From positions 55,493,676 through 55,557,675 of the forward strand of contig CM049311.1 in assembly GCA_026874595.1 (NCBI GenBank): a stretch of 64,000 nucleotides of DNA. The letters run 5' to 3'. This document shows positions 927 through 43,390 of the stretch, piece after piece. Positions within the stretch are counted from its first letter, which is position 1, and each line of letters starts with the position of its first letter. This stretch comes from Sipunculus nudus. Lineage: Eukaryota; Annelida; Sipuncula; Golfingiida; Sipunculidae. The notes beneath the pieces were generated by a model, which saw only the letters and a list, made by a program, of their open reading frames with translations, had not been told where the DNA came from and did no database searches. Position numbers and translations under genes: made by a program.

Positions 927-961
927 GTGACCCTGACCTTGACCCTTGACCGATCATGACC
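927..961. promoter_or_regulatory. Cluster of TGACC half-sites in the satellite unit
   Basis: Four or five TGACC-type half-sites follow one another within 35 bases, including TGACCTTGA, the reverse complement of the extended nuclear-receptor half-site TCAAGGTCA. The cluster recurs in every unit. Function is not shown; it may be just a simple repeat of the TE from which the unit came. Confidence 0.25.
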
Positions 962-14205: not shown

Positions 14206-14367
14206 GAAGTGAATCAATAAGTTGGAGCATTTCTAGTATTACCAATGCCTGAAGCCAGAAATAAAGACCAGGCAGCTGAAATATGATATTGCAGTAGGAT
14301 TTGACAGGATTCCACTAGACTTCAGGAGCCGACCTCTGCAATTTTGGGACCTCAGATCTGACATCAC

Positions 14368-14607
14368 CCGGACATGAGCAGAAGGCCCAGGGTTTGGACA
14401 GCATGAAGACAAGGATTCTTGAAGTGATAATAAAATAATACATGTATTTATCCACTTGAATCTTGGGTCTTTTCTGCCATGGACCAACTACAGGTGAGCG
14501 AACAGATAGCTCACACATGTGGACGTAATGTATATGAGGATTGTCAAGTGTAAAAACAACAGATAAAGGAAGATCCTCATCAGAACTTGTTTGAGCCGTT
14601 AATTTTC
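14368..14607 (-). pseudogene. Exon-like ORF in the left arm, unidentified
   Basis: On the minus strand an acceptor-like GTTTCCCTCAG precedes 14,607 and a donor-like TCCGG|GTGATG follows 14,368. The frame between is open and reads KLTAQTSSDEDLPLSVVF...WQKRPKIQVDKY. It could be an exon captured by the element and duplicated with the arm. The right-arm copy is interrupted, so only one arm keeps the frame. I recognise no domain and I am not sure that it is coding. Confidence 0.3.
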
Positions 14608-14697
14608 CTGAGGGAAACAATACTGGTCTAGTTAAAGTTTGGCATATATTTTTCTTCACATGTAACTTGTTAAGATAAGCATCCCAATTTGGGTCCC

Positions 14698-15671: not shown

Positions 15672-15760
15672 AGACCCGAATCGGGATGCTTATCTTAACA
15701 AGTTTCATGTGAAGAAAAATATATGCCAAACTTTAACTAAACCAGTATTGTTTCCCTCAG

Positions 15761-15993
15761 AAAATTAACGGCTCAAACAAGTTCTGATTAGGTTCTTCCT
15801 TTATCTGTTGTTTTTACACTTGAAAATCCTCATATACATTACGTCCACATGTGTGAGCTATCTGTTCGCTCACCTGTAGGTGGTCCATGGCAGAAAAGAC
15901 CCAAGATTCAAGTGGATAAATATTATTTTATTATCACTTCAAGAATCCTTGTCTTCATGCTGTCCAAACCCTGGGCCTTCTGCTCATGTCCGG
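15761..15993 (+). pseudogene. Broken copy of the exon-like ORF in the right arm
   Basis: It is the inverted counterpart of 14,368-14,607 on the plus strand and keeps the acceptor-like TTTCCCTCAG. A GAG-to-TAG change stops the frame ten codons in (after QTSSD), and the rest stays open from MCELSVRSP. This asymmetry shows that the arms have diverged since the inversion. Confidence 0.35.
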
Positions 15994-16149
15994 GTGTGTC
16001 AGATCTGAGGTCCCAAAATTGCAGAGGTCGGCTCCTGAAGTCTAGTGGAATCCTGTCAAATCCTACTGCAATATCATATTTCAGCTGCCTGGTCTTTATT
16101 TCTGGCTTCAGGCATTGGTAATACTAGAAATGCTCCAACTTATTGATTC

Positions 16150-17117
16150 ACTTCTACTTTGTTTTGTTTCACAGTTAAGCATGCATGGCGTTGTTCTTGG
16201 TTACAGTTTATGTGTATCATTTCACAGTTTAACATTATTTTGTTGTGCTTGGTTGCAGTTTATGTGTTTCATTTCACAGTTAAGCATGCATGGTGTTGTG
16301 CTTGATGGCAGTTTATGTGTTTCATTTCACAATTAAGCATGCATGGTGTTGTGCTTGGTTACAGTTTATGTGTTTCATTTCACAGTTAAGCATGCATGGT
16401 GTTGTGCTTGGTTACAGTTTATATGTTTTGTTTCACAGTTAAGCATGCATGGTGTTGTGCTTGATTACAGTTTATGTGTTTCATTTCACAGTTAAGCATG
16501 CATGGTGTTGTGCTTGGTTACAGTTTATGTGTTTCATTTCACAGTTAAGCATGCATGGTGTTGTGCTTGGTTACAGTTTATGTGTTTCATTTCACAGTTA
16601 AGCATGCATGGTGTTGTGCTTGGTTACAGTTTATGTGTTTCATTTCACAATTAAGCATAATGTTGTTGTGCTTGGTGGCAAATTATGTGTTTTGTTTCAC
16701 AGTTAAACATAATGATGTTGTGCTTGGTGGCAGTTTATGTGTTTTGTTTCACAGTTGAGCATTATGTTGTTCAGCTTGGTTGCAGTGTATGTGTTTTGTT
16801 TCACAGTTTGGCATTATGTTGTTGTGCTTGATGGCAGTTTTTGTGTTTTGTTTCACAGTGAAGCATGCATGGTGTTGTGCTTGGTTCAGTTTATGTGTTT
16901 CATTTCAGTTTAACATTATTTTGTTGTGCTTGGTTGCAGTTTATGTGTTTCATTTCACAGTTAAGCATTATGTTGTTATGCTTGGTTGCAGTTTATGTGT
17001 TTCATTTCACAGTTAAGTATTATGTTGTTGTGCTTGGTTGCAGTTAATGTGTTTCATTTCACAGTTAAGCATGCATGTTGTTGTGCTTGGTTGCAGTTTA
17101 TGTGTTTCATTGCACAT
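16150..17117 (+). repeat. 53-bp minisatellite, right arm
   Basis: About eighteen units of the left-arm minisatellite in the opposite orientation. It is longer than the left array, so one arm has expanded or the other has shrunk. Confidence 0.9.
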
Positions 17118-17999
17118 TATGTACAGCAGGTTGGCCAGCCAGCACACAGTTGCCATAGGTAGGACTGAAGCTACACATATAACTAGATGATTCTGACTCA
17201 TTCTTAAGTAAAATTTGAAATGAAATGAATGTGAAATCAAAATTCTCTAGCTAGCTCAGCTGTTTTATATAGGATTCAGTGATTCTAGCATACAGTAAAG
17301 ATAAAACAGTTTGATTTTATGTAAGCTCTTTGAAAATTGAGTTGAGTTGCTGCTGATGTTAGGGAATACTTGTGTCAATAGTCTTTAATGCATTCTTTCT
17401 CCAAGTTCTCAGTTGCATGAACACAGGGTGTCTAAAATTGTGGTTATAAATGAAAGTTGCAGAACTTTTTTTAGTCTCTGTTGGTAGTTATGGACTCACC
17501 ACATGTATATAAATCCAGAAATACAACATAGTTACAAATATGAGAAAAATATGCTATCAGTTTGTAAGGGCACATTTTTTAGCATCTTGCTCCTTTGCAG
17601 TGGTGAAGCCCTCCTGGCCAAGCAGGGGGTTTAATTCTCATTCTAACTATCATCACCTTGCAGTGTTGACCTAATTTAGTCCCCAGCAGGTTATTTACCA
17701 CTAATTCAGATAATATATATTATAAAATGGCCTTCTTTTTAAACTTCTGAAATTTTTTGGGGCAAATGCTTTCAAAATTTCAGAATCTGTGAGCTTTACT
17801 CTTTATATCTATATGAGAAGAAAATTAAGTTTTAAGAACTTATAGGGGAGATCTTTCTGTCCTGTTCTAACCTGGAGATAATTTTCGTTGATTTTTTAAT
17901 TCAAATCCATTGATTTCCATAATGTACAAATTTCTATTTTGAAAAGTAAAACAAGGTTTTCAAATGGAAAAGAAAGTGTTTTTTTTTATATTTCACTAT
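17118..17999. other. Unique AT-rich DNA
   Basis: No gene, RNA or transposon end could be supported in this stretch. Confidence 0.5.
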
Positions 18000-20900
18000 A
18001 ACAAGGCCTACAGGCCTAATGCGAACCTGTGCATTGGGAAATACAACAGGTATAATAGGTATAATGCTTCAATGTTGGACCATTACTTTTCATGTATATG
18101 AACTATGCAAGTACTAAACATTTTGAATATGAAACAATTACAAAAACATCACTGCTGAAATTCTGGCATAGGTGCACACAACACTAAAAAGATTGTAGCT
18201 GGCACCACCAGTCTTGTATACAACGAAGCTATCAGAGATATATACATAAGCCCAATTTCAGACTGATATGTCAAACCCCTCCTGAGAAAAACGTGTGCAA
18301 AAGTCATTGTAGGTGGCGACACCTGTCTTGTGAGCGAGAAAGCCATCAAAGACACATAGACAGGTCAAAATATTAGGCCAATCATCAAACTTACCTTGAG
18401 TCTGATGCATGGGGCTGACCAGGCTTAGGTGAGAAAGGCTGTTGCCCCGAGTGAACTATGACAAATTGCTTGCTCAGACTACTGCACTGAGTGAACTCTT
18501 GACCTGCACCTGGCTAGACTGAGTGAACTTTTGACCTGAACCTGGCTGCACTGAGTGAACTCTTGACCTGTTGCATAATCTGACACAGTTGGCAGTCTGC
18601 CAAAGTTATAAATAGAATGCAGCTACTGCACTGAGTAAACTCCTGACCCATACCTGGCTGCACTGAGTGGACTCTTGACCTGTTGCCTAATCTGATACAG
18701 TTGGCAGTCTGCCAAAGCTATAAATAGATCCAGACTGACCTCTAGCCTGTTGCAAAATCTGAAATAGTAGCCACACCATTGCATAAGCTCATGCAGGGGC
18801 CCTGCCCTGAGGGGCTTGACACCCATGAAGTGATCACATGATGCCCATGAGGTGTTCACATGTCACCCATGAGGTGATCACATGCCATGTGCTTGGCTGC
18901 ACTGATTGAACTCTTGACCTATATCTGGCTGCACTGAATGAACTCTTGATCTGTTCCAAAATCTGAAACAGTTGGCTGTATCTCATCCTATTTAAAGATA
19001 CAGATTCAATCTTGGCCTGTTGGTATATCTGTTTACACATACTGAAAGACTTTGGTTAAATTTCTTTTTTCAAGCCGACATATTCATAAAACTTTTTATC
19101 AAAATATCTAGAATAATAAAAGATGCAGTACTTTCATTGTTAAAGGTCCAATAGTTCTGCCAAAAATCATTCTAGTAAACTTGAACAAAGGCCACCTAAG
19201 AATAATTTTTGTGCAATGTTACAGAAGATATAATTGAAATAATAATTTTGTAGAACACTATTGCAGTCCTCAGTTTGAAAAAGACATAATAATGGCCATA
19301 AGACCAACTTAAGCTTTTCACAACTCAACCAAAAATCAACAAACTCAGTATATTCTGATATGATTGAAAGAACCATGTCCTAGGATAATTCTTTTGAAAA
19401 ATTGAACAATTCAACTTGACAGTTTCATCATTAAGCTGAAAGAAGCTAAAATTATGAGTTTTTTTGCCCATAAAAAACAGGTCAATGTAGCTGGCACCAC
19501 TTAATCTACAACTTCAAATATGGGTCATGTGACCAACATTTGCACAATACCTGGTTAATGCTAGCTTCTGTAATTTCTGAGAGTACTATGTCAGTATGCT
19601 TACTTGGCCAAATGACTGTGCAAATTTGTGTAACTCCACTAAAAGTCATCAAATGCAAACCATTTGAACAAACTTGAGAGGGCTTGCCTCTGGAATCATT
19701 TCTGTAAAATATTTAACAATTTGGCTGGACCGTCTACAAGAAGACGACTTTTAAAATATTGTCAGCTTTTTCCTTATAAAATCTAAGTAAATGCAGATAG
19801 CAAAAAAATAAGCTGAATCCCACAAAATTTGATATGTGACAGATTATTGCATAAAATCTGGGAATGGTAGCTCCTGCTATTCCTGAGAAATTATGGATTA
19901 ATGTACAGATGACCAATGACCCCCTGTACAAAAATAGGTCAATTCAGGTGGTGCCACCAATACCTGAATTTCATGTATGACTCATGTGACCAACACTGGC
20001 AAAAAATTTGGTGATGATAGCTCTGGCTGTTTCTGAGACTGTCATTTTAGTATGCTTTTTTGGACAGATGACTTAGTTCAACTTCCTGAACAAAATTGAG
20101 GGAGATGGTATAAAAGATTATTTCTGTGAAATATTGAACAATTTGGCTTGAGTGTTTCGGAGGAGAAGATTTTTAAAGGTTTTTTAGCTTTTTCTCTATA
20201 AAATTTAAGAAAATTTTCAGATGGCTTATTTTTTGCATTAAATTTCATGATGCTAGCTCCAATCATTTTCAAAATAGTATGGGTAAACGTACAGAAGACA
20301 AACACCGCCACACCATCGCATTAGTTCACAGGTTCACTAAAAGTTAATACATATGCATATTGAATGCAAAATTGTAATACAGATACATCTCACTGATGGC
20401 AAAATCTTGAATTAATTTGACTATGGATACCAATTATTTATAATCCATGTACAGCCGTCTTTATATACCCACAGAGAGCTGTATAGCTGTGATTGTAAAC
20501 ATTGCCTGGCATGAGGAATATCTAAAAATCATAAATTTACATTTTTTAAAAGCTTTTAAAAAACATTCTTGTCAATATTAACCATAGATAACCTGAAATC
20601 TAAATGTCTAGAGACATGATGTAATAAATGCTGATAAACTGGTGCCAGTCTAGATGTATCTAGATGTATCTGTGTACCTGCTTCACACAGCTAACATATA
20701 TGGTAAAATGACTCAATTGAACCTTTATTATTCAGCCAAAATTCATTCTTTGGAACCATAAAAGACAATTATTATAAGAATTATTCAGGGGATTATTCTT
20801 GTAAAATATTAAACAAATTGGCCTCAGTAGGATCAGTCAAAAAAAATTTTACAGGTTTATAACTCATATGGAAAAATACAGCAAAATGGCTAAGTTAAGC

Positions 20901-21750
20901 TTCCCGTAACTCAGCCAAAAATCACTGAACCAAAACCATTTGAACAAACTTGAATTATCAACATCTAAGGATAATTAATATGTGAGATTTTAGAATTTGG
21001 CCCAGTGGTTTTTGAGGAGAAGATCTTTGCAGCCACTGAGCTAAAATGGGCTGTTACAGCATCTGACTAAAGTTCAGCTTCCCATAACTCAGCCAAAAGT
21101 CACTGAACTTAGACCATTTGAACAAATTTCAGAAAGCACTACCCTAGGATCATTTCTGTGCGATATTAAACAATTTGGCAATATGGTTTCAGAGAAGAAG
21201 TTTTTTGTAGCCATCAGTATGATACGGGCACTGATGACCCCCGTACAAAAAAGGTCCATGCAGGTGGTGCCACCAATACCTCAATTTCAGATATGTCTCA
21301 TGTGAACAACAATGGCATAAAATTTGGTGATGATAGCTCATGCCTTTTCTGAGATTGTAATTTTAGTATGCTTTTATGGACAGATGACTAAGTTCAACTT
21401 CCTGTAACTTGGCCAAAAATCACCGAACTTAAACCATTCGAACAAACTTGAGAAAGATTATTCCAGGAATCATTTCTGTGAAATATTGGACAATTTGGCT
21501 GAACAGTTTTGGAGAAGAAGATTTTTAAAGCTTTTTTAGCTTTTTCCCTATAAAACTTAAGAAAATGCAGTTAGCATAAAAATAAGCAAAATCCAATACA
21601 GCTTTTTAGATGACTAAATTTTTGCATAAAATTTTGTGATGCTACCTCTTGCCGTTTTCAAGATAGTATGGGTTAACGTACAGACGACGGACGCCGGACC
21701 AAGCCACACCATCGCATAAGCTCACAGGTTCGCTAAAAATGAGATCACAT
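18000..21750 (+). mobile_element. Composite Helentron-like repeat, copy H2 (complete)
   Basis: The 5' end is ACAAGGCCTACAGGCCTAAT followed by GCGAACCTGTG. The 3' end is CATCGCATAAGCTCACAGGTTCGCTAAAAAT, given here as two overlapping halves, CATCGCATAAGCTC and CACAGGTTCGCTAAAAAT. CAGGTTCGC is the inverse of GCGAACCTG, so the ends form a subterminal inverted repeat. An internal copy of the 3' end (TTAGTTCACAGGTTCACTAA, near 20,322-20,341) shows that it is a tandem of two elements. GGTGGYGCCACC-type cores lie near 18,195, 18,310, 19,493, 19,949 and 21,260. It is closely similar to H4, including the internal terminus. No coding capacity. Confidence 0.8.
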
Positions 21751-22784: not shown

Positions 22785-23724
22785 GCCTACAGGCCATATG
22801 CAAACCTATGCAAATGAGATTACACCAGGTATAATGCATCAATGCTGGACCATTACTTTTCAAGAACATGTGTAACATGTATATGAACAATGCAAATACT
22901 AACAAGGCCTACAGGCTTAATGCGAAACCTGTACAAAGTTTGGGAGTATGAATAGAGGTTTATTTTTAAAATTTAATATTGATCCTCCTATGTCCTGCAT
23001 ATGTACCTTAGTCATTATGATTTCAGCAAAATGGACGTTTCAGACCTGCAAGTTTCAGACTAGGACATTTTAAAACTAGAACATGGGTAGTCAACAAGCG
23101 ACTATGTGTATCCGCAGAAATAAGAGTGGGACGGGGAAGTGAGGCATGGATTAAATGGCAAGGGGAATAGAGTGATATGTGTTGCATATGAGCATGGATG
23201 TCTGCAGCGTAAATGTGAATGTAGGTGGTGCCACCTGTAATAAAATTGAGAAATTGTCCAGAATGTATAAACCTGCAAAATTTCAGGTGGATAAGTCAAA
23301 CCACTGCTGAGATATGAGTGATTTTATCCCAAAGCAGATAAACAGATGGACGCTGTGCAAAAATGGTTGCAGGTGGAGCCACAATTTTTAGAGTATCTTA
23401 TAACGCTTTCCAAGGGCTACATTGGTCCAAAATTTTTAGCCTAATCCGTCAAACGGTTCATTAGTTATGTGGGTTTATGTGTGGAAACAGACGCACAAAT
23501 GGACGCTGGGAAGAGAGGAAAGGCCGGAGGTCAACCAAAAATGAGGGCGCAGTAGTTCACATGTGACCCTATCATAATTCCGAATTTAAAAAAAATCTGC
23601 CCAGTGGTTACGGAGGAGTTCTCCGGAAACCTATGAGGCGGTGGCAGTGGCGGTGGCGGTGGTGTCCGACTGAAAACATAGTATCGGCAGAACTCTGTAG
23701 TGGGGGATACAATGATTGTAGCTG
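22785..23724 (+). mobile_element. Composite repeat copy H3, left part
   Basis: Two 5' termini lie one inside the other: GGCCTACAGGCCATATGC at 22,785 and AACAAGGCCTACAGGCTTAATGC near 22,900. The text runs up to GATTGTAGCTG at 23,724, where the CCCGG insert begins. It resumes at 35,386. A TATCCGCC-family repeat is nested inside. Confidence 0.65.
23073..23710 (+). mobile_element. TATCCGCC-family repeat, copy B (short)
   Basis: Starts with GGGTAGTCAACAAGCGACTA and TATCCGCAGAAATAAGAGT and ends with TATCGGCAGAACTCTGTAG and GGGGATAC. The core has only two palindrome positions (near 23,224 and 23,372), so this copy has lost most of the dimer array. Confidence 0.7.
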
Positions 23725-23744
23725 CCCGGCTGTAAAATTTCCAA

Positions 23745-24160
23745 GCTTTCCATGGAAATCCATGGAAATCCATGCTTGATTTCCATGGAAATGAAGCATG
23801 GAGTATTGGCACTCTTTTTCCATGCTACATGGAAAAAAAATCACCGATACATGCATGGAGTCCATGGAAAACCAGGGCTTTCTATTTCCATGCTGTCCAT
23901 GGTGTCCGTGCTGTCCATGGAAAAGCACAGCTTTTTTGTCCGTGGTGTCCATGGTGTCCGTGCTGTCCATGGAAAAGCACGGCTTTGTGTCTGTTGTGTC
24001 CATGGTGTCCATACTGTCCATGGAAAAGCATGGAGTATTGGCACTCCTTTTTCCCTGCAGTATGGACACCATGGAAAATGTGCAGGTCCAGTCCATGCTG
24101 TCCGTGCTGCCATATCGTCCACGGAAAAGCAAGGACAAGCATGGAAAAGTATAAAACAAA
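23745..24160. repeat. CCATGG minisatellite, left subterminal
   Basis: Units combine TCCATGGAAA with GTCCATGGTGTCCGTGCTG and AAAAGCA; the middle repeats with a period of roughly 57 bp. Long ORFs on both strands (HGVHGVRAVHGK types) come only from the lack of stops in the unit. Confidence 0.85.
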
Positions 24161-24188
24161 AATAGGATTTGAGAAAAATTGTGTATAA

Positions 24189-24189
<1 letters not shown>

Positions 24190-24229
<40 letters not shown>
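24190..24229. repeat. (GA)n microsatellite
   Basis: Twenty GA dinucleotides without visible interruption. Confidence 0.98.
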
Positions 24230-24233
<4 letters not shown>

Positions 24234-24528
24234 ATGATAGTTACATATGTTTCCTTGAGCTTTCACTAATGTAATTAAGAACAATGTACCTCTCACCCAT
24301 GTCAGGGTTTGTTGCTGTTTGTTGATCATTAGCAAAATGTTTAGTTCAGCAAGATTAGGAATTCTGTCTTCTTCTCCTTGCCAAAATACCACTACTAGCA
24401 AAAAACTAAGTTTTTTTTTGCAGAAATCCTGAACTAAACATGAAAAAAAAAACTCTGGAAAGCCACCACACAAAAGTAAAAAAGTAAATGTGAATGCAGG
24501 TTCACTGCTTTTATTCCACTAATGACAG

Positions 24529-24626
24529 TTACTTCCACTTCGTGTTTCTGCAGGGCTTCAACAATTCAGCAATCTTCACATTTATCATAGTAGTTTTAAC
24601 TTCAGGCCATTTTTCCTGGACAAGAT
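24529..24626 (-). CDS. Candidate terminal exon, unidentified protein
   Basis: On the minus strand a strong acceptor (TTTTCTTCACAG) precedes 24,626. One frame is then open to a TAA at 24,529-24,531 and, after two bases of a split codon, encodes LVQEKWPEVKTTMINVKIAE followed by LLKPCRNTKWK. An AATAAA signal follows at 24,510-24,515. The entering phase (one base needed) matches the donor at 32,061 and also the donor of the POPDC exon at 37,057. Joined to either it restores a GAT codon, so this may be the last exon of a separate gene starting near 32.2 kb or the POPDC tail. The family is not recognised. Confidence 0.4.
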
Positions 24627-24930
24627 CTGTGAAGAAAAGAGGGAATAAGACATTGTTTATTTAATTATAGAATTGAGCTGAATGTTGCATTTTAACATGA
24701 ACATGGACACAAGCTTTCACCAAATATACACTAACAAATATATTGTAAAACCTAATAAATTATCCAAATAAAGACATATTAAGTTCAAATAAATCTTCAA
24801 GTCAAAGATATACATGTGTGCAAGTTAAAATAAAAGTAAAGACATTTTTTGCAAACAATTAGTGAGAAATCTTAATTTTTGGTAATAAAAGGTAGACAGC
24901 TAGACAGTTGTAGACAAAAAAAAAGGAAAA

Positions 24931-26825
24931 CTAGATGTGTCGGAACGACACGAATGCCCCCGCCTTGGGCAAATTAGAAACATTTGTATAATTTGGAAAA
25001 TTTTTTAAGTTCAGGAGGTGTCATATGGTCAAAAGTAGGTCAACAAGGGCAAAATGCAAACTTGATCTGTAACGGGTCATTATCAAGCAACACACCAAAA
25101 ATCATGCCAGTATATGCAGGCATTGTGAAAAAAAGTCCATACATGTGCATTTTCCATAAAAATTTCTGTCTTTCATGAAATTTTCTATGTTTAGGATCCG
25201 TAAAACAATAAAAAGTATGTCAACCAGGATGAAACGCAAACTCGATCTGTAACTGTCATTATCTGCCCACACAAAAAAAATCAGGGTGGTATCTGCAGGC
25301 ATTGAGGAAAAAAAGTCAGTACATATGCATTTGTTATGAAAATTTATATTTTTCATGAAACTTTCTATGTTCAGGAGCAGTCAAATGGTCAAAAGTAGGT
25401 CAACTGAGACAAAACAGGAACTCAATCTGTAACTGGTCATTATCTGCCTACACACCAAAAATCAGGCCCATATCTGCAGGCACTGCGAAAAAAAGTCCAT
25501 ACATGTGCACTTTTTTATGAAATTTTCTATGTGAGAGCACCGCCAAACGGTCAAAAATAGGTCAACTGGGGCAAAACGCGAACTCCATCTGTAACTGGTC
25601 ATTATCTGCCAACACACCAAAAATCAGGCCAATATCTGCAGGCACTGAGAAAAAAAAACCGTACATGTGTATTTGTCATGAAATTTCATATGTTTCATGA
25701 AATTTTCTATGTTCAGGAGCCGTAAAACGGTCAAAAGTAGGTCAACCAGGACGAAATGCGAACTCGATCTGTAACTGGTCTATATCTGCTCACACACCAA
25801 AAATCAGGCCAATATCTGCAGGCATTGTGAAAAAAAGTCCGTACATGTGTATCTGTCATGAATATTTCTATTTTTCATGAAATTTTCTAAGTTTAGGAGC
25901 CGTAAAACGGTCAAAAGTTGGTCAACCAGGACGAAACGCGAACTCGATCTGTAACTGGTCTATATCTGCTCACACACCAAAAATCAGGCCAATATCTGCA
26001 GGCATTGCGAAAAAAAGTCCGTACATGTGTATCTGTCATGAATATTTCTATTTTTCATGAAATTTTCTAAGTTTAGGAGCCGTAAAACGGTCAAAAGTAG
26101 GTCAACCAGGACGAAATGCGAACTCGATCTGTAACTGGTCTATATCTGCTCACACACCAAAAATTAGGCCAATATCTGCAGGCATTGTGAAAAAAAGTCC
26201 GTACATGTGTATCTGTCATGAATATTTCTATTTTTCATGAAATTTTCTAAGTTTAGGAGCCGTAAAACGGTCAAAAGTAGGTCAACCAGGAAGAAACGCG
26301 AACTCGAACTGTAACTGGTTTATATCTGCTCACACACCAAAAATCAGGCCAATATCTGCAGGCATTGCGAAAAAAAGTCCGTACATGTGTATCTGTCATG
26401 AATATTTCTATTTTTCATGAAATTTTCTAAGTTTAGGAGCCGTAAAACGGTCAAAAGTTGGTCAACCAGGACGAAACGCGAACTCGACCTGTAACTGGTC
26501 TATATCTGCTCACACACCAAAAATCAGGCCAATATCTGCAGGCATTGCGAAAAAAAGTCCGTACATGTGTATCTGTCATGAATATTTCTATTTTTCATGA
26601 AATTTTCTAAGTTTAGGAGCCGTAAAACGGTCAAAAGTAGGTCAACCGGGACGAAACGCGAACTCGATCTGTAACTGATGGGTATCTGCCCACACACCAA
26701 AAATCAGGCCAATATCTGCAGGCATTGGGAAAAAAAGTCCGTACAACTGTTTCATTTCGGAATGACGGAATGACGGACATGGGTAAAACTATATGCCCCG
26801 GCCACTTTGTGGCGGGGGCATAAAA
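24931..26825 (+). mobile_element. ATGCCCCCGCC-family repeat with 180-bp units
   Basis: ATGCCCCCGCC lies near the 5' end (24,954-24,964), and its inverse GGCGGGGGCAT forms the right arm of a 3' hairpin (26,795-26,819, GCCCCGGCCAC / GTGGCGGGGGC around TTT). The core has about ten units of about 180 bp with CAGGCCAATATCTGCAGGCA, CCGTAAAACGGTCAAAAGT and CGAACTCGATCTGTAACTGG. Units between 25,800 and 26,600 are nearly identical, with an exact 180-bp period. The layout fits Helentron-associated or pearl-type elements of bivalves. Confidence 0.8.
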
Positions 26826-29035
26826 ATGCAATTATTAACAATCTGATGCAAGTATGTCAAACTGTAGACCAACAAAGATTTATCTTTACAAGAATAACAT
26901 TATTTTCACTTCTGAGTATTATATAGTTCTCTGAATGACTGAATAAATTTAAATATAATAATTACTGAATTGCTTCTCTTTTTCATCATTCCTGATACAA
27001 TTATATGAGCCTGATAACTCAAAGATAAAGGTTCATTTACTGTAAATGCCCTGGAGTTTTTCTTGGTTGTCCAAGACTTGGTGGCGGTCTGCTTCTTATT
27101 TCCAGGCTGCCCAGTCAGTCTCCTGCCTTTGTATTCTTTGTTTGTGTATAATCAACGGAAAAGCAGTTCAGCTTTTTTTTCCATACTGATGTTTTATTCC
27201 AGGTTGATTTCAGTTGCTCCTTCAAAATATAAAACAGAGGGGTAGATAAAAATATGTACCAGTAAGCCTAGTCAGATTTATATAAGTAAAGATCAAATAA
27301 GGTTGTTAAAAAAACATGTGAAGACTGAGATATCACATTGCACTTTTATAATCTGAATCCTTAGAATTGGATACAATGTAAAATTAGAAATATGCATTCT
27401 CCTGAATGCTTGCGTCTGCCATGTGGGTGGTCAATATTGCAAGTTGGAGTGCACATGTGACTGAAGATTGCATCATCATAGGTATAATGTAACTAAAGAT
27501 AGATCAATTTGCTTCATAAAATAAAAACTAACATCAACTTACTATATATGTGTGAATATTCAGTGAAGATGTTTCATTGATCTAGATCATGAGCTGGACA
27601 CACACTGCATAATATTATTAATTCTTCGTTGGCCTATTTCCGAGGTGCCTTTAGAATTTCATGGGAATCCATTCATGATTGCATGATATATGCTGTAAAG
27701 TAACCAAGCCAACACACAGAACGCAAAAATAACAATGAATATATACCATCCTGGCAGAGGCAAAATGTGACCCATGGGTCATGACTCTCAGCTTACAATC
27801 ATAGTCTCAGCATGAAGAAACGGAATTAAATCAACAGTACCAACATGTTCAACATATTAAAATGTGATGCGCCATGTTCAGTGTTACCTAAAAAAAACAG
27901 GTGCCATGCAGATATAAGAGGGGAAAATTAACTTTTACCAGTATCTTATATATTATGACATAACAATAACTTAAATGTGAACTTGGGTTATGGACAAAAG
28001 GTGTTAAACTGTTTGAATCAAAAGTCCTTTCAAGGTTTAAGTCTTGATACAAAAGTGTGTTTGATACTATATTTTAGCATGCATATTCTGCAAATTAGGC
28101 CATTGTGACCAAAATGCAAATGCAGGAAGTAGAAAAAAGTCATTTAAGGCCAGATTTGGTCATATCATTAAGAGTGGTTACTATTTTGAGCATGTTTGAT
28201 TTATTACAGTCAAGTTTATAATCATGAAAAGGTACTTCAGCCCATAGCTTGCATTAAATTAGTAGACTTTGTGTCGGGTTCAGTGGAACAACTTCCTTTC
28301 TGGTAATCAGATGCGGAATTAGAAATTCCTTCTGGTTTTGTAACTTTACCAGTTTGATGGCAGGATGAAAAGGTTGCCTGATATCTCACAAACATGAGGC
28401 ACACAGACTGACAGAGTTTTAAATGTATTTATAGATTATAATCATACTGAGTGTAATAAACTTGCCATGTTTGAAGTTTCATCAGATGTCAGAGGAGGAA
28501 AGTCAACTTTTTGCCAGTCATGATCATGTAGATATGGCATTAAAGTGAACTAGTTTTAGATAGCAGTTTAGGTCATAGCCCAAGGTTTATATCTACTGAA
28601 TTAAGAAATCTCTGGTTTAATGGTAATGATACTAGAAAAAAAATAGTTAAATTTAGCCTGAAATTTGACACATTAAGTCATGAAGGTATCTAGTGGGTAG
28701 AAACATCCAAATGCCAAATACATGTAGTACCCATTTATTCCCAGTGGTTTTGATTTTGATCATATCCGAACAGTTAACAGGTATTTAATCAGGGAAAACA
28801 AGTTTTTACCTGTTGCCCACAGGATTTAGGTCACAAAGATCTTATCGAGGGTTTCATGGATATTTCACAAGAACCTGTCTGGATGTACATCATCAATTTT
28901 CTTACCCTGATGTTACAATTTTTAACCTTGTTTATCATGAGATAGCTACAGAAAAAGACTGTTGAACTGAATATCAGGGGGTGTTTACATGTAAGATCAT
29001 TATAGAATATCGAATATAAGAAAAAAAGATGATAC
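26826..29035. other. Unique AT-rich DNA
   Basis: No supported gene. On the minus strand around 27,090-27,150 there is an open, basic frame (KGRRLTGQPGNKKQTATKSW) followed by a weak donor. Without a convincing acceptor I do not call it an exon. Confidence 0.4.
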
Positions 29036-29103
29036 CTTGGTGTATGTCCATTAAAAACCTTGGAGTCACAACTGCCATGGCCTTCACTTACATGATCCAA
29101 AGA
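29036..29103 (-). CDS. Candidate small internal exon
   Basis: The minus-strand acceptor GTTTTTATTTGCAG precedes 29,103 and the donor CCAAG|GTATCA follows 29,036. The 68 bases read SLDHVSEGHGSCDSKVFNGH then TP and two bases of the next codon. It enters in phase 0, which fits the M-P-R-V-S-G frame of the candidate exon at 32,062. It does not fit the longer frame through the terminal exon at 24,529. Both readings cannot be true for one transcript unless there is alternative splicing. No family recognised. Confidence 0.25.
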
Positions 29104-31702
29104 CTGCAAATAAAAACAACTGCACTTAGGAACATAGATAATTGACCCTGCATTACCCCTTAAAAAGATATCTGTAAACAGAAATTTTAAGCTTTTATTA
29201 TTATGTTTTATAAGTTCTGCCCTTTTTATTCCATTTTTGTACATTGAAAATGGTTTTCTAATTGATTCTCTTTTGTGAACTCCTGTGCAGGATGTATATA
29301 TAAATAAGGCAAGGTTTGAAGGTCAATACAAAATATATAAGTATGGAACTGGAAAGAGATCTAACCTCAGGGGATGTGATCAGATGTGTTCCCATCTTGA
29401 TAAGCCTAAAAAACAAGTCTGTTCTACAGTATTATATTGACTCCATGGTTTTTATTCAAGGAGAGATTCATGGTAATTGAGGTCATCACCTTCTATATTA
29501 GAGTGGTGTTTATCTATAATAATTCCATATTTGGTGAAAAATTAACTTCTCAAGAATCGGTAGATTGAGTACTATGAAAATCGGAATGGGTTAAGTTCAA
29601 CGAAAGTAAATTATCAGTTTTTAGATCAAAAGGTCAAGGGTCAAAATGACAGGACCCACATTTTGAAAAGGCTCATAAGTATATCGATCGTTAGAGACAA
29701 AGTTAGCCGAGTGTCGAGTACAATGGGCCCCTAGTTTATAGTTAACCCATACTTCATTTAAGCAAAAAATAAACAATTACACGGTTCTCAGGCACCCCCT
29801 GCGTCCCTTAAAATCAAAAGCGTAAAAAAAATAATACTGACGGCAACCTGCTCAATCTCTACTTCCGCCACTTATAAAAAGGTCGCATTTACTGCAATAA
29901 TACATTAGCAACATAAAGAGGGAAAATAGTTCAAATATTTAATGGAGGAGATAATTTTTGTCAAATTATATACTCAAAGGAAGGAGGAATCCACGATCTC
30001 TTACAGCTGTAATACAGCTTATATAGTACTAGGCCTACACGCGTATTTACCACGAAAACAGGGACGGGGTTAGCCGCCGACGGCGACGCAACAATCACTA
30101 AAGAAGCAATTGAGGAGTCCATTATTATGGGCTAGGGCCTAGTTTGAGCCAATCTCGTGTATAAATTTGCTGAGCATTTCGTGGACACTTCTGCAAAGTC
30201 AGGAAATTGAAGTTTGTGCTTGACAAAATGCTTATTATCAATGTGACAGTCGCATTTTCAATTTACAACGTGTGAGCTGATTAAAACGTGCTGGCCATGG
30301 TGTAGTATAATTTTTGTTATTTTGTCTGACATGTGACATCTGACCCTTTGACATTGGACCCATGCGCCGATTGGTTGACCTTATCCTTATTTGCATCGCA
30401 ATCACGTGACTTGTATTTCAGACGTCGTCTCAATTAAGTCGACCTGGTGCAAATACATTGACATACCTTTTACCGGTAGAGTTTTAGATAAAACTTATTC
30501 CCGAGCATTGTAATTACGTGTTTCACTAACGAAACTTGTTTATATATGTCAGTCATGCAGGTCATGAATTTTGTAATATCTAACAGCATGAGTACGCTAT
30601 TCGATCCCGCGCTTGTCTGCCTAACTTCAAAATGACCGTATACGGTGAAGGAAGATACATCAATGAAAAGAAAGGCTAGTTTCATTTTGAAAATACCGGT
30701 ATGTTGACCGGTGTACAGACAGGTCTTTAAAGTATACATGTATTTAATTAGTACATTAGTTTACTTCAGGGGGAGTTAATTAAAAAATTTTCTTCTGCAT
30801 GCCACGGCAGTTTCAAATAAGACCACGCTCTCACGTAGGCCTAAAATCTATGACACACGAAGTCGAGACTCGCATATACGGCACATATAAAAAAAAATTC
30901 ACAAGAATTCCGCTTTGGTTAATTATATTTTCAGTTTGCTCTTAACAAATTTTTTTTTATAAATTATTTTTATTATGCATATCGTTTAGGTATATTCTTG
31001 AGAAAAAACGAACATAAAATGCTCAAAAGTATACTTGGGAAGTAATATAATGTTAATTCACATAAAAAATCGATTTGCTACTTCACAATTAAAAGGTCGA
31101 ATAAAACTGTTATACTTGCAAATGACTATACAAACACACGTCTTCATAAATAATACCACATTGCTATGGATACATATGGTATAATGGTGTAAGGGGGTAA
31201 CCCAGTATAGTCTCATTTTTACTAGCAAAAATATGTTTACTAGCAATATATTTTGACAGATGATGATTTCTCGCGCATATGTTCTTGGTGCCGGGATCGG
31301 AGTCCTCCACCCGCTACTATACCAGTTATTACTGGTACCATGCAACAAATATATATTATATTATTATTATCAGCGTATGTACATGTGTGTCGGTCATCGT
31401 TCCGAAATATAAGGCTTGTATTTTTTAAAGTTATAACTATTTTGGTAAAGATTTACAGAAGGCAGTGTGTCTCTGAATTAATATCTGCATTCTACATCTG
31501 CAGACCCGGTATCGCTACAGTGGGACAGGCTCTGTAAATGAAATTTTCATCTGAATGATAATATGATATCGCCGCCGAGGAGTGAAACGATAACCTTCGT
31601 GCTACAAACGGGGCACACAGCCCCCGCTGAATGATACCATACCCCCGGGGAATTAGGTCGGTCGTCTGGCGCTCAGTAACAGCTCACACATAACGCTTAC
31701 AC

Positions 31703-31704
<2 letters not shown>

Positions 31705-31749
<45 letters not shown>

Positions 31750-31756
31750 TATATAT
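31705..31756. repeat. (AT)n microsatellite
   Basis: About 25 AT dinucleotides with one interruption near the right end. Confidence 0.97.
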
Positions 31757-31896
31757 TGTGGGTGCGTGTGAGGTTGTGTGTCAGTGTGTGTGAACAGCAG
31801 GTTTATAAAATGTAACATTATGCAGTGCCCCGTATATTTTGTCTTGGTGACAAAGTTTACGTCACAGGAAGATTGGCGAATTTGAAATAACCCTTT

Positions 31897-31915
31897 ACAC
31901 ACACACACACACACA

Positions 31916-31958
<43 letters not shown>

Positions 31959-31960
31959 AT
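31897..31960. repeat. (AC)n microsatellite
   Basis: About 30 AC dinucleotides interrupted by AT steps. It produces a spurious Cys-Val repeat ORF on the minus strand. Confidence 0.97.
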
Positions 31961-32061
31961 ATATGTCTTGGCTCTATTTTGCTATCAAAATGGATTTTCT
32001 TTATATTCAGAGACACTGATACATCGGACGAAACGGTTAAGCGGGAGTCAATTTGACTTAC

Positions 32062-32161
32062 CTCCGATCTTCCAAATGACATCACATGTTGTCCCGAAAC
32101 CCTTGGCATTTGGCAATAACTTCTTTTCCTTCCATGTAATCCTCGAAGGCTTATCTTGGAT
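32062..32161 (-). CDS. Candidate exon at the CpG-rich segment
   Basis: A perfect donor (CGGAG|GTAAGT) ends the exon at 32,062 on the minus strand. Two frames are open across it. One reads IQDKPSRITWKEKKLLPNAK then GFGTTCDVIWKIG, starting at a weak acceptor (AAAATCAG) and leaving in phase 1; it joins the terminal exon at 24,626 without a stop. The other has an ATG at 32,109 (MPRVSGQHVMSFGRSE) and leaves in phase 0, fitting the exon at 29,103. The first gives the longer product. I do not recognise either. Confidence 0.3.
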
Positions 32162-32820
32162 CTGATTTTCAGTTCATGTTAATAACATTGCCAGTGATGG
32201 GGTCATCAATAATCCACACATTACACGATCAGCGCGAACAGCTTCATACCGGTCGGCAGTGCGTGTTGACTATCTCTCGCCTCTCAAACTGTGTTTCAAA
32301 CTGCGCGCCAAACAAAGCTGGGATCATGTGGCAGAAAATAGGCTGACGTATGGAAACGTCACTGCCTGTTAGTAACTCGCAGCACACTGTGTACACATTG
32401 CTCATGTAAGGGATTTCTGTAGTTCAGATGTTTTAGTCAAAACTGAAATTCTGTGCTGCATGGAATAATCTGTTTTAATGTAGTAACCTCTTCAAGAAAA
32501 AAAAATTAGAAATGGATCATGCTGTTTTATTCCACAGGTAATGACATACGTTGTTTTAAGATAATTCATTAAAATGAATAGAAGTCTCCTTAAAATAATC
32601 ATTTAGACCTACTGTCTAAGGTCCATATTGTGGTATAAACTTATACGGATTTGATTTCACTCAGTGAGAACATCCTTTAAAAAATCCGTGTTGGAGAAAA
32701 CCCGGCCGGTCGAGATTTTTGGCTCCGGCTGGATTTTTTTTAAAGTAATCTGCAAATTCTCTTTTTTTTTGTATGACAGGATTTTGACGTTTTGAGGCAA
32801 GCAATCGCTCCCGCGTGCCA

Positions 32821-32840
32821 CCCCCCCCCCCCCCCCCCCC
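32821..32840. repeat. Poly-C run
   Basis: Twenty C residues; its length in the assembly may be unreliable. Confidence 0.95.
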
Positions 32841-34019
32841 GGGAACAAACCTTTAAAAGAAAAGCAAATAATCGCTCTCCTGACATTCTGAGATTTCTTT
32901 CATTTTTCGGGTCTGATACGATTGTCTGAAAATCCAGGGTTACGCGGGTACCGGTACTTGAATTAGAAGACGCGTACTGCCTAAGAGTGATCATCGGTTG
33001 TACTAAAAGCCGTGCCGTTACTTACACTGATCAACCTCCCGGTGTTTTGATAGAAATCATGTTAACAGCTGTACGACTTGAATGCATGATGGAACAGCCA
33101 GACCTGCTGAAAGGGACTTTCACTTGACGAAATTTGGCGTGATTCCCCAGCTGAAACTTGTGTGAATATGTGTGTATTTTGTTTTGTTCGATGGCGAAAC
33201 ACGCAGGTCAAATTATAATTAAGAACTTTATACGTTGACCGCAGAATATTCGCGTGTGCAAGCCTCAATCGCCCCATGACATCGTTGACCCTTTTCATGA
33301 TCACGCGGGGCCCGTTTGTCAGGAGTAAAGACCGACGATTTCGGCAGTTTTATGACATTAATTCCCGCCGTTAAACAGCAAGTTGCAAAACATGCAAGAC
33401 CCGCTTGAAATGCAAGTTTAGTCTCCGTTATCGATCATGTGTGATATTTATTTCCTGACATTAAGCTTGGTAATTTCTGAAACTGACATTTGTTGAACGA
33501 TTATAAACTGACAATACGCATAGTTATGTACAATACCACGAAAAAATGTACTTTTTGGCGCGGCTTTCTTGTATCTTTATTTAGATTAACAAATGGAGAA
33601 ACAATTGATTTTTAGAAGTGTTTAGGAATGTCAAAGCAATATTCGTGCGGAACTTGTTAATTGGAGCATATTTTATATTACATTTTATTTATATTATCAG
33701 TGACTTTTTTATTGAAAAAAAACAGCACGAACAGAAACTGGCGTCATACCGCCTAAAATTTCGTCAGTTTAATTAAAAAAAATGATTTGGCACATAGGCC
33801 ATATCAATATGCCGATTTATTAACCATATGATATATATAACAATTATGTTATGATCATCTGCTTTTGTTGTACTAATTTCTTTTCAGTTTTGTTTGTTAA
33901 GACTTTTATTCAAGTAAAGGGGCCAACTGAAGTATCCACGGGATTTAGTTTAAATGCCCTTAAAATATTGCATTTCAAAGATATGAATACATATCTAAAG
34001 CAATGACTGATAGTGTAGT

Positions 34020-34800
34020 TATCCCCTGCCCCGGCAGAATTGGGGATATAGTGATCAGCTCCGTCCGTCTGTATGTCTCTTAACAAATATATGCCACGCG
34101 ATATCTCAAAAAGTTATACTTGGATCTGCTTCAAATTGTAGTAGCAGGTGCATCTCATGGGTCTCCAGAGAACTGATTAGGTTTTGGTGACACTAAAGAG
34201 ATTTTTAAATTTTTTATGATTTTTTAAATGGAAAATTTAACATATCATATGCGACATGATTTTCGAAAAGATTTACTCAGTTCTACTTCTAATTGTGGTA
34301 GTAGGTGCATCTTTTGGGTCTCCAGAGTGATTAGGTTTTGGTCACACTTGAATGATTATTGGATTTTTTTATTTGCCCATTTAGGACAGGACTTATTATG
34401 GCATACCTAAAGTCCCTCCGTCCATCCATCTGTCCGTCTGTTAACTTTGTTCTCGCCATGACAACCTACCAGGGCTTTGATGGATTTTCGCGAAACTCAT
34501 AATAACCACAAAACATTAGATTATCTCGCCCGAGTTTGATCATGGGCAATATCCCCGCATATTTAATGAGGTCAGAGGTCACAAGGCTACTTTGTGGTGT
34601 TGCCGCGATAAATTTCAGCGCGTATTATGCACGTTTTTGGTGCTTTGGTCATGTATTGTTTTATACAAATTTTTTTTATATATCACATGCAACACTATTT
34701 CTCAAAAATGTTGACTGGGATCTACTTCTTATTATAATAGCAGGTGCATCCTGTAAGTCATTTTCCCGTTTTAGCTTCTCTGATTAAGCCTGAACATACT
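34020..34800 (-). repeat. Dispersed repeat with three diverged units
   Basis: Units at about 34,080, 34,240 and 34,670 share ATCTCAAAAAG, GGATCTRCTTCxAATTGTAG, TAGCAGGTGCATC and GGGTCTCCAGAG. GCCCCGGCAGAATTGGGGAT and CCGTCCGTCTGT near the left end suggest that the element runs on the minus strand. Confidence 0.55.
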
Positions 34801-35214
34801 GTTCTTGGTCAGTTCTGTGACTGTGTCTGTGAGGGTGTGTGGTATGGTGTCTGAACACATTTCTCACAGTCACGTTTGGCAGCGGATACAGTCCTCTTGA
34901 CATTTTTTAGTTGTATTTGCATTTGAAAAAATCTGAGTACATTTGCCTATACATTTAAATTCAGTGACTAATAATTATATATAAAGCATTTGCATTAAAA
35001 AAAAGAAACATAGCATTTGCATTTAAATGCATCATAAACATTGAGCCCAATTCTGGTATGTATGTGTCATTACAGAATAAAGACAAAAACAAAATTTGTG
35101 ATACATTTGAATATATGTGACCTTTTGCTGTGAACTTTTACAAAAATAAATATTTAAGATCGTCTACCTTGTGATCATTTGAATTGCTTGCATTGAACTT
35201 GCATTGCCATGTGA

Positions 35215-35385
35215 TTCCATGAATGTCCATGTATATTGAATTTCCTTTCCATGGTTACGTCCATGGAAATTTTCTATTGTGTACTGAAAAGCATGGAAAG
35301 CTCCTCATTTTCCATGGAAATCCATGTTTTTCCATGCGTTCCATGGACAGCTTGGAAACTGCAGCATGGAAAATGTACAGCCGGG
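35215..35385. repeat. CCATGG minisatellite, right subterminal
   Basis: Short counterpart of the left array: TTTCCATGG, GTCCATGGAAA and GCATGGAAA recur up to the inverted terminus GTACAGCCGGG. Confidence 0.75.
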
Positions 35386-36509
35386 TGGCACCACCAGTCT
35401 TGTATACAACGAAGAGATATTTACATATGCCAAATGTCAGACTGATATGTCAATATGAAATAAGCAGGGACATACACTGTGCAAAAATTATCGTAGGTGG
35501 TGCCATCAGTCTTGTACACTATAAAGCTACCTGATATGTATAAACATGCCCAATTTTAGGCTGATGTATCAAATTCCTCTGTAGAAATAAGCAGGCGCAT
35601 ACACTGCAAAAGTCAATGTAGGTGGCACCACCTGTCTTGTAAATGAGAACACCATCAAAGACACACAGACAGGTCAAAATATCAGGCCAATACATCAAAC
35701 TTCCCCAGAGTTTGATGCACTGGGCTAACAAGGCTTAGGTGAGTAAAGCAGTTGCCCCTGAGTGAACTGTGAGAAATTGCTGCCTAAAGCTACTGCACTG
35801 AGTTATTTCTTGACCTGTTGCATAATCGGACTCAGTTGGCAGTCTGCCAAAGCTATAAATAGATCCAGGCTGAACTTTGGTGCCAAATCTGATGCAGTGA
35901 GCAGTCTGCCAAAGCTATAAATAGAATGCAGCTACTGCACTGAGTCAACTCTTGACCTATACCTGGCTAAACAATTTGGCCATCTGGTTTCAGAGAAGAA
36001 GTTTTTTTGTAGCCATCAGTATGATACAGGCACTGATGACCCCCATACAAAGAGGGCAGGTTGCGCCACCAATACCTAAATTTCAGATATGACTCATGTG
36101 ACCAACATTGGCATAAAATTTGGTGATGATAGCTCCAGCCATTACTGAGATTGTAATTTTAGTATGCTTTTTTGGACAGATGACTAAGTTCAACTTCCTG
36201 TAACTTGGCCAAAAATCACCGAACTTTAACCATTCGAACAAACTTGAGAGAAGAATCATTTTTGTGAAATATTGGGCAGTTTGGCTGAAAAGTTTCGGAG
36301 AAGAAGATTTTTAAAGTTTTTTTTAGCTTTTTCCCTATAAAATCTAAGAAAATGCAATTACCAAATAAATAAGCAAAATATGATAGAGTTTTTTAGATGA
36401 CTAATTTTTTGCACAAATTTTGTGATGCCGTTTTCAAGATAGTATGGGTTTACGTACAGACGACGGACAATGCCACACCATCGCATAAGCTCACAGGTTC
36501 GCTAAAAAT
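35386..36509 (+). mobile_element. Composite repeat copy H3, right part
   Basis: Resumes with TGGCACCACCAGTCTTGTA, continues through the ACTGAGTGAACTC segment (shortened) and the CAGCCAAAAATCAC-type units, and ends with CACACCATCGCATAAGCTC..GCTAAAAA at 36,509. It lacks much of the middle present in H2. Confidence 0.7.
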
Positions 36510-41419: not shown

Positions 41420-42121
41420 AATTTAGATAAGAGTCCATGTTCCATTGATTCTTGTCCACTGTTTGGTCCTGAACCAGGCTGTGGCTAGTGACTTGAAACT
41501 GTCAAGGGTTGTTGCTCCAGCGATGTTATGAGGTAGAAGGTTCCAATTTCTAACAGTTCTTACATAAAAATGATATTTATATGCATCAGAGTGACTAGGG
41601 GCTGAATGTGTAGATACTTGTTGACATGGCGACGTGATGGCTCAACTGTGGATGGGAAGTTGATGTTTACCAGGCAATGTTTAATTTTGTAAAATAGAGC
41701 AAGGTCATAAGTTGCCCTTCTATTCTATTCATTGTAAAATATGATTTATATCCCTGGTTAGGTTTGCTTCAGGTCCAAAAATGTAATTATGCAGGACGAA
41801 TCTTGCAGCTCTCCTTTGAACATTTTCCAATTTAATTATGTTTTGGTGAGTATATGGGCTCCAGGCTGGTGACGCATACTCAAGATGCGGTCGGACGAGA
41901 GATTTATATGCCATTTCCTTAATTTCACGGTAACACATGCTCAGGTTGCGTCTGCAGAGGTTGAGAAGTTTGGTTGCTTTGTTGGTAATTTTATCAACAT
42001 GTTCATTGAAATTAAGCTTATTGTCTAGGATGACACCTAAATATCTGTCAGATTTGATCTCTTCCAGGGGAGTGAAACTGTTATTAGGTGGGTTTACTTG
42101 TAGAATGTCTCTGGCATCTTA
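41420..42121 (-). pseudogene. CR1/jockey-like LINE reverse transcriptase fragment
   Basis: Minus-strand frame from 42,121 to 41,729 reads from DARDILQVNPPNN through SDRYLGVILDNKLNFNEHVD to YKSLVRPHLEYASPAWSPYT and VQRRAARFVLHNY. This is the C-terminal thumb and downstream region of non-LTR retrotransposon reverse transcriptases. After a stop and a frame change, RTVRNWNLLPHNIAGATTLD followed by SFKSLATAWFRT continues the family C-terminus to about 41,420. The catalytic palm is absent, so it is a 5'-truncated, dead copy, as is usual for LINE insertions. It sits inside the hAT-like element. Confidence 0.88.
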
Positions 42122-43390
42122 AAATACTCTATCATCTATGATTGTAGGTATCCCGGTTGATGATGGGGTGGACATGACATATGAATAATTAATTTTTGTT
42201 TTAGTTCTTCTAGTAATACATCTGTCTCGACAATATCTTTGTCAATCTTGCATTTTATTTAATCTTTAAACCTTAAATATTTTATTTTAACTCTTCGTTT
42301 TTGCGACTTTTTTTATCAGACCCGTATGTGTATTCATAACGTCCCGTCAGTTCTACCAACAGGAGTACGGGCCGAATCAGTGAATACAAGTGTAGGCGGC
42401 AACGGTTTCCCGCCAAACCATCTGGAATGCACAGGCTATGAAATGCTACACTTGCATACATCATGAGGCCTCATTGGCTTTTTGAAAAAGACTTTCTCAC
42501 AAGACAGTATATATAATATTGATCCATTTTTGTTTAGTTATGAACTTAAAGGGACACACGAATGCTTGTGGTATGGGCATCATAAATTCGCTATGCAACA
42601 GAAAGCCCGGGAGGGCAGGGATTAGGCATTAAAACTCGATAGACTCCCAGAAAACGGGAGTGTTGGAATCTCTAACTGGATAACAATTATGCCATGGTAA
42701 TGACTATAAAGGCAACATTCTGTTATTTATATCTTTCTGAAAATAGCAGCATATTATTCTTTTCTTTCATTATAAAAACTCATTTTTAAATTGCAATTTT
42801 CAATACACAACAGTCTTTCATCACTGAAAATTATCTAAAAAAGAATTTTTTTAAAGTTTTAACAACTTGAACTCATAGGCTTAAGTGATTATTTTTTATT
42901 GCAAACGACAGTGAAATACCTACCATTTTTATTCTTCTCATATAGGCCTACGTACCATTTTAGCTTCTCCCCTGTGATGTCATACTATATTTGCACAAAA
43001 CGCCACTGCTGTGATCACTTCACTACAGAAAAGGTTAGAATTTGGTTTGCTTGGTAACCTACGAACAACACTCAATTCTTGAAATTGTGTATCTTGAATG
43101 CATGTTTAGTTGAATGAAGACTGCCCTGGCATTTTTTTTTATGAAAGTATTCATAAGAATGGCATGACGGCAATAGGGGGTTGACCACCCAGATTGGGAA
43201 GAGTGGATGCCAACCTAAGTTGGAACGACACTATAAGAGGAGAAATGCCAAGGTGTAGTCTGGTTAAGGTGGTTTTCATGATCACGTCCGTTCCATCTTT
43301 GACAAATATAATAAAGTTGATACAAAATATTTTTAAACAGTCAGAAAACTAAAAATCATGACTTTTTCATGACTTTTGATAATTTTCTAA

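Follow-up and report, generated by a model that had tools for sequence, protein, structure and literature searches.

An 11,661-bp block (positions 23725–35385) in a 64,000-bp stretch of the Sipunculus nudus genome (assembly GCA_026874595.1, contig CM049311.1; hereafter the window, C6:55493676-55557675) raises the question of whether it arrived as one mobile element and, if so, what could have moved it. The first-pass annotation, made from the letters alone, had proposed a giant element without a transposase and had named a two-ended rearrangement as the alternative. We conclude that the block is likely a copy of a multicopy non-autonomous DNA transposon with a core of about 10 kb, which is moved in trans and is nearest to the animal CACTA/EnSpm elements with CCC ends and 2-bp duplications (TRC elements). 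Its insertion as a unit is shown at several unrelated sites, each with its own 2-bp duplication, by four two-ended copies including that of the window. The giant transposase-less element was thus borne out: it is multicopy, the further units measure 9,945–14,890 bp and no Pfam domain reached its cut-off in it.

Insertion of the element as a unit

Both termini carry the 10-bp inverted repeat CCCGGCTGTA, which is exact only at 23725–23734 (plus strand) and 35376–35385 (minus strand) within the 64 kb and occurs with one mismatch at a single further place in the window, 59633–59642. The match between the two ends, claimed by the first-pass annotation, reaches far past these 10 bp (alignment score 75; mean 21.1 and maximum 40 in 300 shuffles). 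The left junction reads AGCTG/CCCGGCTGTA and the right one TACAGCCGGG/TGGCACC, so that TG flanks the element on either side as a 2-bp target-site duplication. This duplication, also proposed earlier, was confirmed by alignment with four other copies of the host repeat in the window. The copy near 9.36 kb, where an intact host site had been placed at 9,352–9,375, is uninterrupted and reads GATTGTAGCTGGCACC with a single TG, and the copy in 18001–18400 (near 18.2 kb) has the same uninterrupted reading with one TG. The copy at 43401–43800 is uninterrupted and has TA where the others have TG; in the copy at 62691–63120 the insertion spot is lost. The flanks of the element are 84.1% and 85.7% identical to the host copy at 7.5–11.5 kb, and such near-equal values are expected if a single host copy was split by the insertion. 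The inverted ends, the duplication of TG and the uninterrupted site in two paralogous copies of the host repeat show the inserted element to be genuine.

The motif CCATGG occurs 11 times in 23725–24160 and four times in 35190–35385 (Poisson P of 2.7e-19 for the outer 436 bp on the left and 1.7e-7 for the outer 196 bp on the right), in agreement with the subterminal arrays noted earlier on both sides. Four copies are spread over the 11.0 kb between, and nine lie in the remaining 44.8 kb counted outside the element, a count which omits the first 7.5 kb of the window (a tandem array with 18 CCATGG). Similarly, TCCNNGGA was found eight and three times in the two ends (640 bp together) and not once in the 11,021 bp between, the borders of ends and interior being set by eye.

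The window's own assembly (1.43 Gb in 153 contigs) was searched for further copies, and the copy counts from this search are lower bounds. The left 376 bp were detected at no fewer than 11 places with 90–100% identity, the window included, and at a minimum of five others, where the copies are older or incomplete (79–94%), plus a few fragments shorter than 70 bp. All 10 retrieved loci have the left end with at most one mismatch and three of them have both ends: C6b (11,844 bp, duplication AT), C7a (9,945 bp, CA) and C12a (14,890 bp, TA). These are the two-ended copies at 5–15 kb spacing for which the first-pass annotation had advised a search. Empty sites were established for the window copy only, the AT, CA and TA copies being judged by their duplications. 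Since four elements bear four different 2-bp duplications, the two-ended rearrangement is rejected; the exact 10-bp inverted ends, the 2-bp duplication, the uninterrupted paralogous sites and the independent copies on other contigs leave a negligible chance for a rearrangement or an assembly error, in favour of which nothing was seen. The ends, the duplication and the empty sites, together with the two-ended copies elsewhere in the genome, uphold the single insertion event proposed earlier. The ends were not found only as independent short miniature inverted-repeat transposable elements, though shorter elements share the inverted repeat.

The interior is common to the family as well. Its part 26830–31680 is present at 91–99% identity in eight of the 10 other loci (C5a, C6b, C1a, C12a, C7a, C1b, C9 and C8), and it was also found in C12x, which has the right end only, and in the older C4 (86–93%). 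In C17 and C11, which lack the interior match, the left 0.9–1.1 kb is kept and unrelated repeats follow. The interior had been called mostly single-copy, which holds inside the window but not genome-wide, where it is multicopy; its presence in other loci rejects a single capture at the window site and, with it, the notion of an interior unique to the window copy. The stretches at ~27541–27764 and ~29475–29745 match 23 other genome places at 71–79% and are therefore pieces of older dispersed repeats. A different history would be that of a short element into which repair later placed genomic DNA and which never moved as an 11-kb unit; gap filling of this kind, leaving single-copy elements, is the origin argued for most animal Pack-TIRs (PMC8277862). 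However, the same interior lies in the same position relative to the same ends in loci with different duplications, which refutes gap filling for the window copy and makes this history very improbable. Gap filling could have been the first origin of the interior.

Exact matches to the end pattern CCCGGCTGTANNNTTTCC number 40 in the genome, against none for its reversed control. There are eight exact left-type ends (TAAAATTTCC); for six of them the coordinates place a facing right-type end (TACATTTTCC) no more than 40 kb away, namely for those of the window, C6b, C7a, C12a, C9 (18.2 kb) and C5 (37.2 kb), while C1a and C17 are unpaired. A seventh pair, the left end of which has one change, lies on C1 with its ends 32.4 kb apart.

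Non-CpG divergence from the family majority, which was built from the same nine copies, is 0.65–2.33% in these copies and 0.84% in that of the window, and in view of these low values the spread of the family looks recent. C12x, C4 and C11 diverge by 3.4–7.3% (C4 by ~7%). In the divergence profile of the copies (C17 and C11 excluded), the values rise across simple repeats and the CpG-rich part, and no sharply conserved, exon-sized blocks were seen along the element. In the multi-copy alignment the overlap filter dropped or displaced 1.2 kb on the left side of C12a, so the divergence of C12a is slightly overstated there; realigned separately, its left part is 93% identical to the window.

Some copies carry insertions of their own. 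The nested array at 24931–26821 is missing from five of the six copies inspected and stands in C12a (L031/L032) at the identical site; this tandem-array element with a terminal hairpin resembles the oyster arrays carried by Helentrons (PMC7492417). A long array of ~170-bp units splits C5a (L027/L028), the ends of which are 37 kb apart by coordinates. A 1.5-kb insert at 5336–6865 of the oriented C6b sequence (L019) starts with CAGGGTTGG and finishes with CCAACCCTG; we take these inverted ends to be hAT-like.

Content of the interior and its surroundings

The observed/expected CpG ratio in 500-bp windows is 0.07–0.17 at 24.0–24.75 kb, 0.08–0.34 at 27.0–29.25 kb and 0.68–1.39 at 29.5–34.0 kb. The last segment is CpG-rich, as reported earlier, but promoter-like by composition only, and the ratio is also high in the tandem array at 1–7.5 kb (up to 1.15) and in the nested array (1.13). 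The pattern resembles that of a gene body and its promoter, and it provides the main hint that the interior may formerly have been host genomic DNA. It stays a hint since none of the 40 candidates scored, out of 1,563, could be recognised as a parental locus.

The six-frame Pfam scan of 24100–35240 detected neither a transposase nor any other domain at the cut-off (the single chance match had an E value of 3.6), in accordance with the first-pass annotation, and a wholly unfamiliar transposase in the interior is possible. Searches of Rfam, for tRNA genes and of PDB by sequence gave no match; in PDB the three minus-strand frames, the only ones searched frame-wise, yielded nothing below E 0.077, and an exon peptide gave only a chance match to phages (E 0.8). 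The inserts of other copies, scanned with Pfam in six frames for L031 (C12a) and L035 (C1b) and in three of six for L019 (C6b), produced sub-cut-off matches only. The best of these, to CoV_S2 (E 5.9e-05), scored 22.3 bits where the cut-off is 40, with no stretch passing, and was taken as a chance match in a tandem array. Scans of viral contigs with the element end and with the host repeat gave no matches.

Three open stretches on the minus strand, here called candidate exons A, B and C, are bordered by splice-like signals, and AATAAA follows the last of them. Their changes were counted among copies including that of the window, with changes common to several copies counted in each. Exon A (seven copies) has three silent and six replacing changes, two of them stop-making, and a ratio of replacing to silent substitution rates (dN/dS) of 0.50; exon B (nine copies) has six silent and 12 replacing changes, one stop-making (dN/dS 0.52), and exon C (nine copies) one silent and 17 replacing changes, again with one stop (dN/dS 4.08). 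Pooled, they show 10 silent and 35 replacing changes, four of which make stops (dN/dS 0.87). Frame-breaking gaps occur in C12a (exons A and B), C4 (B) and C1a, C8 and C11 (C), and the phases of the three do not join into one frame in our reading. Because of these stops, gaps and unjoined phases, the candidates, if exons at all, have not been kept intact across the copies. Maintained exons were rejected in view of the stop-making changes and frame-breaking gaps seen among seven to nine copies, and working exons in the window copy are not supported.

The same data bear on the possibility that the element is autonomous, with a transposase gene of its own in the interior whose exons are short and whose product has diverged beyond the reach of Pfam. 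Old copies (C4 and partial matches at 78–86%) suggest a long association of interior and ends, splice-like and poly-A-like signals exist, and the dN/dS values of exons A and B alone would agree with such a gene. The missing Pfam match in six frames, the pooled dN/dS and that of exon C, the four stop-making changes, the frame-breaking gaps, the lack of conserved exon-sized blocks and the phases that do not join all speak against it, however, and autonomy appears quite unlikely to us.

Table 1 Features of the element and its borders (positions counted from the first letter of the window)
Feature	Position	Strand	Basis
Left target-site duplication copy (TG)	23723–23724		Comparison with intact host sites at ~9.36 and ~18.2 kb
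Whole element, 11,661 bp	23725–35385		Ends, duplication, empty sites; other two-ended genome copies
Left terminal inverted repeat CCCGGCTGTA, then AAATTTCC	23725–23734	+	End comparison
Left subterminal array, CCATGG-rich, 52-bp tandem units at 23860–24030	23749–24160	+	Repeat and motif counts
Interior common to other copies, CpG-poor to ~24.75 kb	24161–24930		CpG profile, copy alignment
Candidate exon C, open to stop, closely followed by AATAAA; reading frame disrupted in several copies	24529–24626	-	Splice signals, copy comparison
Nested element, 180-bp tandem array and terminal hairpin	24931–26821		Repeat analysis, copy alignment
CpG-poor interior, 97–98% identical to C5a, C6b, C7a and C1a	26822–29500		CpG profile, genome search
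Candidate exon B; reading frame disrupted in two copies	29036–29103	-	Splice signals, copy comparison
CpG-rich interior, observed/expected 0.68–1.39, promoter-like by composition only	29501–34000		CpG profile
Candidate exon A, good donor site; reading frame disrupted in one copy, changes include stops	32062–32161	-	Splice signals, copy comparison
Place where the window copy is without ~280–290 bp of right-end sequence present in C6b, C7a and C12a	35193–35207		Copy alignment
Right subterminal array, CCATGG-rich	35208–35375	-	Motif counts
Right terminal inverted repeat TACAGCCGGG	35376–35385	-	End comparison, host-copy alignment
Right target-site duplication copy (TG)	35386–35387		Host-copy alignment

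Outside the element, the tandem array at 1–7494 consists of ~5.9 copies of a 1,274-bp unit that are 99.9% identical. A foldback-like large inverted repeat occupies 13680–17123; its arms (13689–14695 and 15673–16675) are 92% alike and its outer parts are 52/53-bp tandem arrays. A segmental duplication of ~95% identity (17983–21740 and 43374–46980) holds host-repeat copies. The open frame of 129 amino acids at 41729–42118 (minus strand) resembles, in our reading, the C-terminal part of a non-LTR (long terminal repeat) reverse transcriptase.

Affiliation and the sister family

Inverted repeats with duplications, an empty site, copies at unrelated sites and an interior without a detected transposase are the traits found that place the family among non-autonomous cut-and-paste DNA transposons. 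Those found of the TRC branch are the CCC ends (CCCGGCTGTA) and the 2-bp duplications TG, AT, CA and TA. The subterminal arrays of short repeats are a trait of CACTA elements in general, as in those of plants. CCC ends and 2-bp duplications are described for animal TRC elements, the Aedes one measuring 9.2 kb with a 10-bp repeat (PMC1636069), and for the Hydra element Spongebob/EnSpm-4N1 (PMC4298943). Our element is like these and like SmTRC1 of Schistosoma in its CCC start, its 2-bp duplication and its size of several kb, and like them it was demonstrated as an insertion against uninterrupted repeat copies (PMC1636069; PMC4298943); the 10-bp length of the inverted repeat is shared with the Aedes element (PMC1636069). 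In contrast to SmTRC1, which encodes a Transposase_21 protein, the six-frame Pfam scan of the interior did not find Transposase_21 (PF02992), and the arrays near the ends differ in sequence.

Only the ends, the duplication length and the arrays indicate CACTA, and the family might instead belong to another superfamily leaving 2-bp duplications, of which ISL2EU is one. The fungal Plavaka and ESTA also leave such duplications (PMC12730594). CCC ends with a non-fixed 2-bp duplication (TG, AT, CA and TA, and CA in the sister family described below) are, however, the combination of animal TRC elements (PMC1636069), and a position outside CACTA/EnSpm, although conceivable, seems rather doubtful.

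The TRC-like family is comparable to plant Pack-CACTA and other Pack-TYPE elements in being non-autonomous and multicopy with a foreign-looking interior, and its CACTA-like ends are as in Pack-CACTA. Unlike the PIF and Mariner groups of Pack-TYPE elements, which average 311–535 bp (PMC8903248), it has ~10 kb and no parental gene was identified. With animal Pack-TIRs it shares terminal inverted repeats around a non-transposon interior, but these are mostly single-copy, with four multicopy cases and an example of 291 bp captured (PMC8277862), whereas the ~10-kb interior found here is multicopy. In size (>10 kb) it is like the giant transposons Burro and Teratorn. In contrast to Burro, which are gypsy-like LTR retrotransposons (PMC6431247), and to Teratorn, which is fused with a piggyBac-like transposon (PMC10175614), no coding sequence was recognised in the giant element. 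Among the titles and beginnings of abstracts listed from the PMC literature, none describes this giant family, although this does not prove the family unpublished.

Among the matches of the end pattern, 22 read CCCGGCTGTAGATTTTCC. Eleven of these, together with a variant end on C16, make up six convergent pairs whose lengths run from 954 to 2,570 bp. The pair that was read, L041 (C14:42627501-42630170), is an element of 2,561 bp with the inverted repeat of the giant family, a CA/CA duplication and subterminal arrays of TCCGCGGA-like palindromes; the remaining five are presumed by their ends and lengths to be the same sister family. TCCNNGGA occurs four and six times in the ends of L041 and is absent from the 1,841 bp between. 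No similarity between L041 and the giant copies was detected by blastn, and the Pfam search of L041 gave nothing at the cut-off, one zinc-ribbon match (E 0.037) lying under it. In our reading, its interior closes like an intron, a last exon and AATAAA. From the shared inverted repeat and array grammar with different interiors we infer that one transposase acts on several passive substrates.

Proposed mechanism and significance

Several points weigh against the reading of the block as a TRC-like transposon moved in trans. Seven of the 10 retrieved loci have no right end (with at most one mismatch) inside the retrieved stretch, and the second ends of the C9, C5 and C1 pairs come from coordinates only. 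For exons A and B considered alone, dN/dS lies close to 0.5, which leaves room for past constraint, although only 9 and 18 changes were counted. The nested insertion common to the window and C12a conflicts with the divergences, according to which C6b, C7a and C5a are nearer to the window elsewhere; possible causes are recombination, loss, or two separate insertions into one A-run. Finally, the Pfam scan of the interior linked no transposase to the CCCGGCTGTA ends, and the superfamily is assigned by three terminal bases, the duplication length and the arrays, which are weak traits.

Since the element has no recognisable enzyme and yet stands at several places in the genome, an enzyme made elsewhere probably moves the family, with some ten thousand bases of passive DNA in each unit. 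Such a transposase would bind the CCCGGCTGTA inverted repeats and the adjoining inner TCCNNGGA palindrome arrays, excise the unit and insert it with 2-bp staggered joints, the interior being passive cargo. Other repeats would land in this cargo, and their insertion would account for copies of 10–15 kb, or of up to 37 kb if the pairs recognised by coordinates are right. The gene-like CpG pattern hints at an origin of the interior by capture of host DNA; we conjecture that a locus came to lie between two shorter elements bearing the same ends and that the whole was moved together. Fusion of neighbouring insertions that moved with the DNA between them has been proposed for acquisition by Pack-TYPE elements (PMC8903248). 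A more far-reaching version, which we put forward tentatively and consider unlikely, is that two short CCCGGCTGTA-ended elements flanked a whole host gene (promoter, introns and last exon), moved as a 10-kb macrotransposon and spread through the genome.

Transposition efficiency is said to fall strongly above ~6 kb of cargo, the Pack-MULEs of one early plant survey were mostly 1–2 kb long, and artificial constructs have moved cargoes of 100–200 kb (PMC6431247). A young family of 10–15 kb in which no transposase was detected means that such large blocks can spread naturally. The two families, with shared ends and array type and different interiors, offer a natural test of substrate recognition by a CACTA-like transposase. 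If the macrotransposon origin were true, it would represent the carriage of a whole gene locus by a DNA transposon without an enzyme of its own, and the related ends and different interior of L041 would mean that the same machinery has carried loci more than once.

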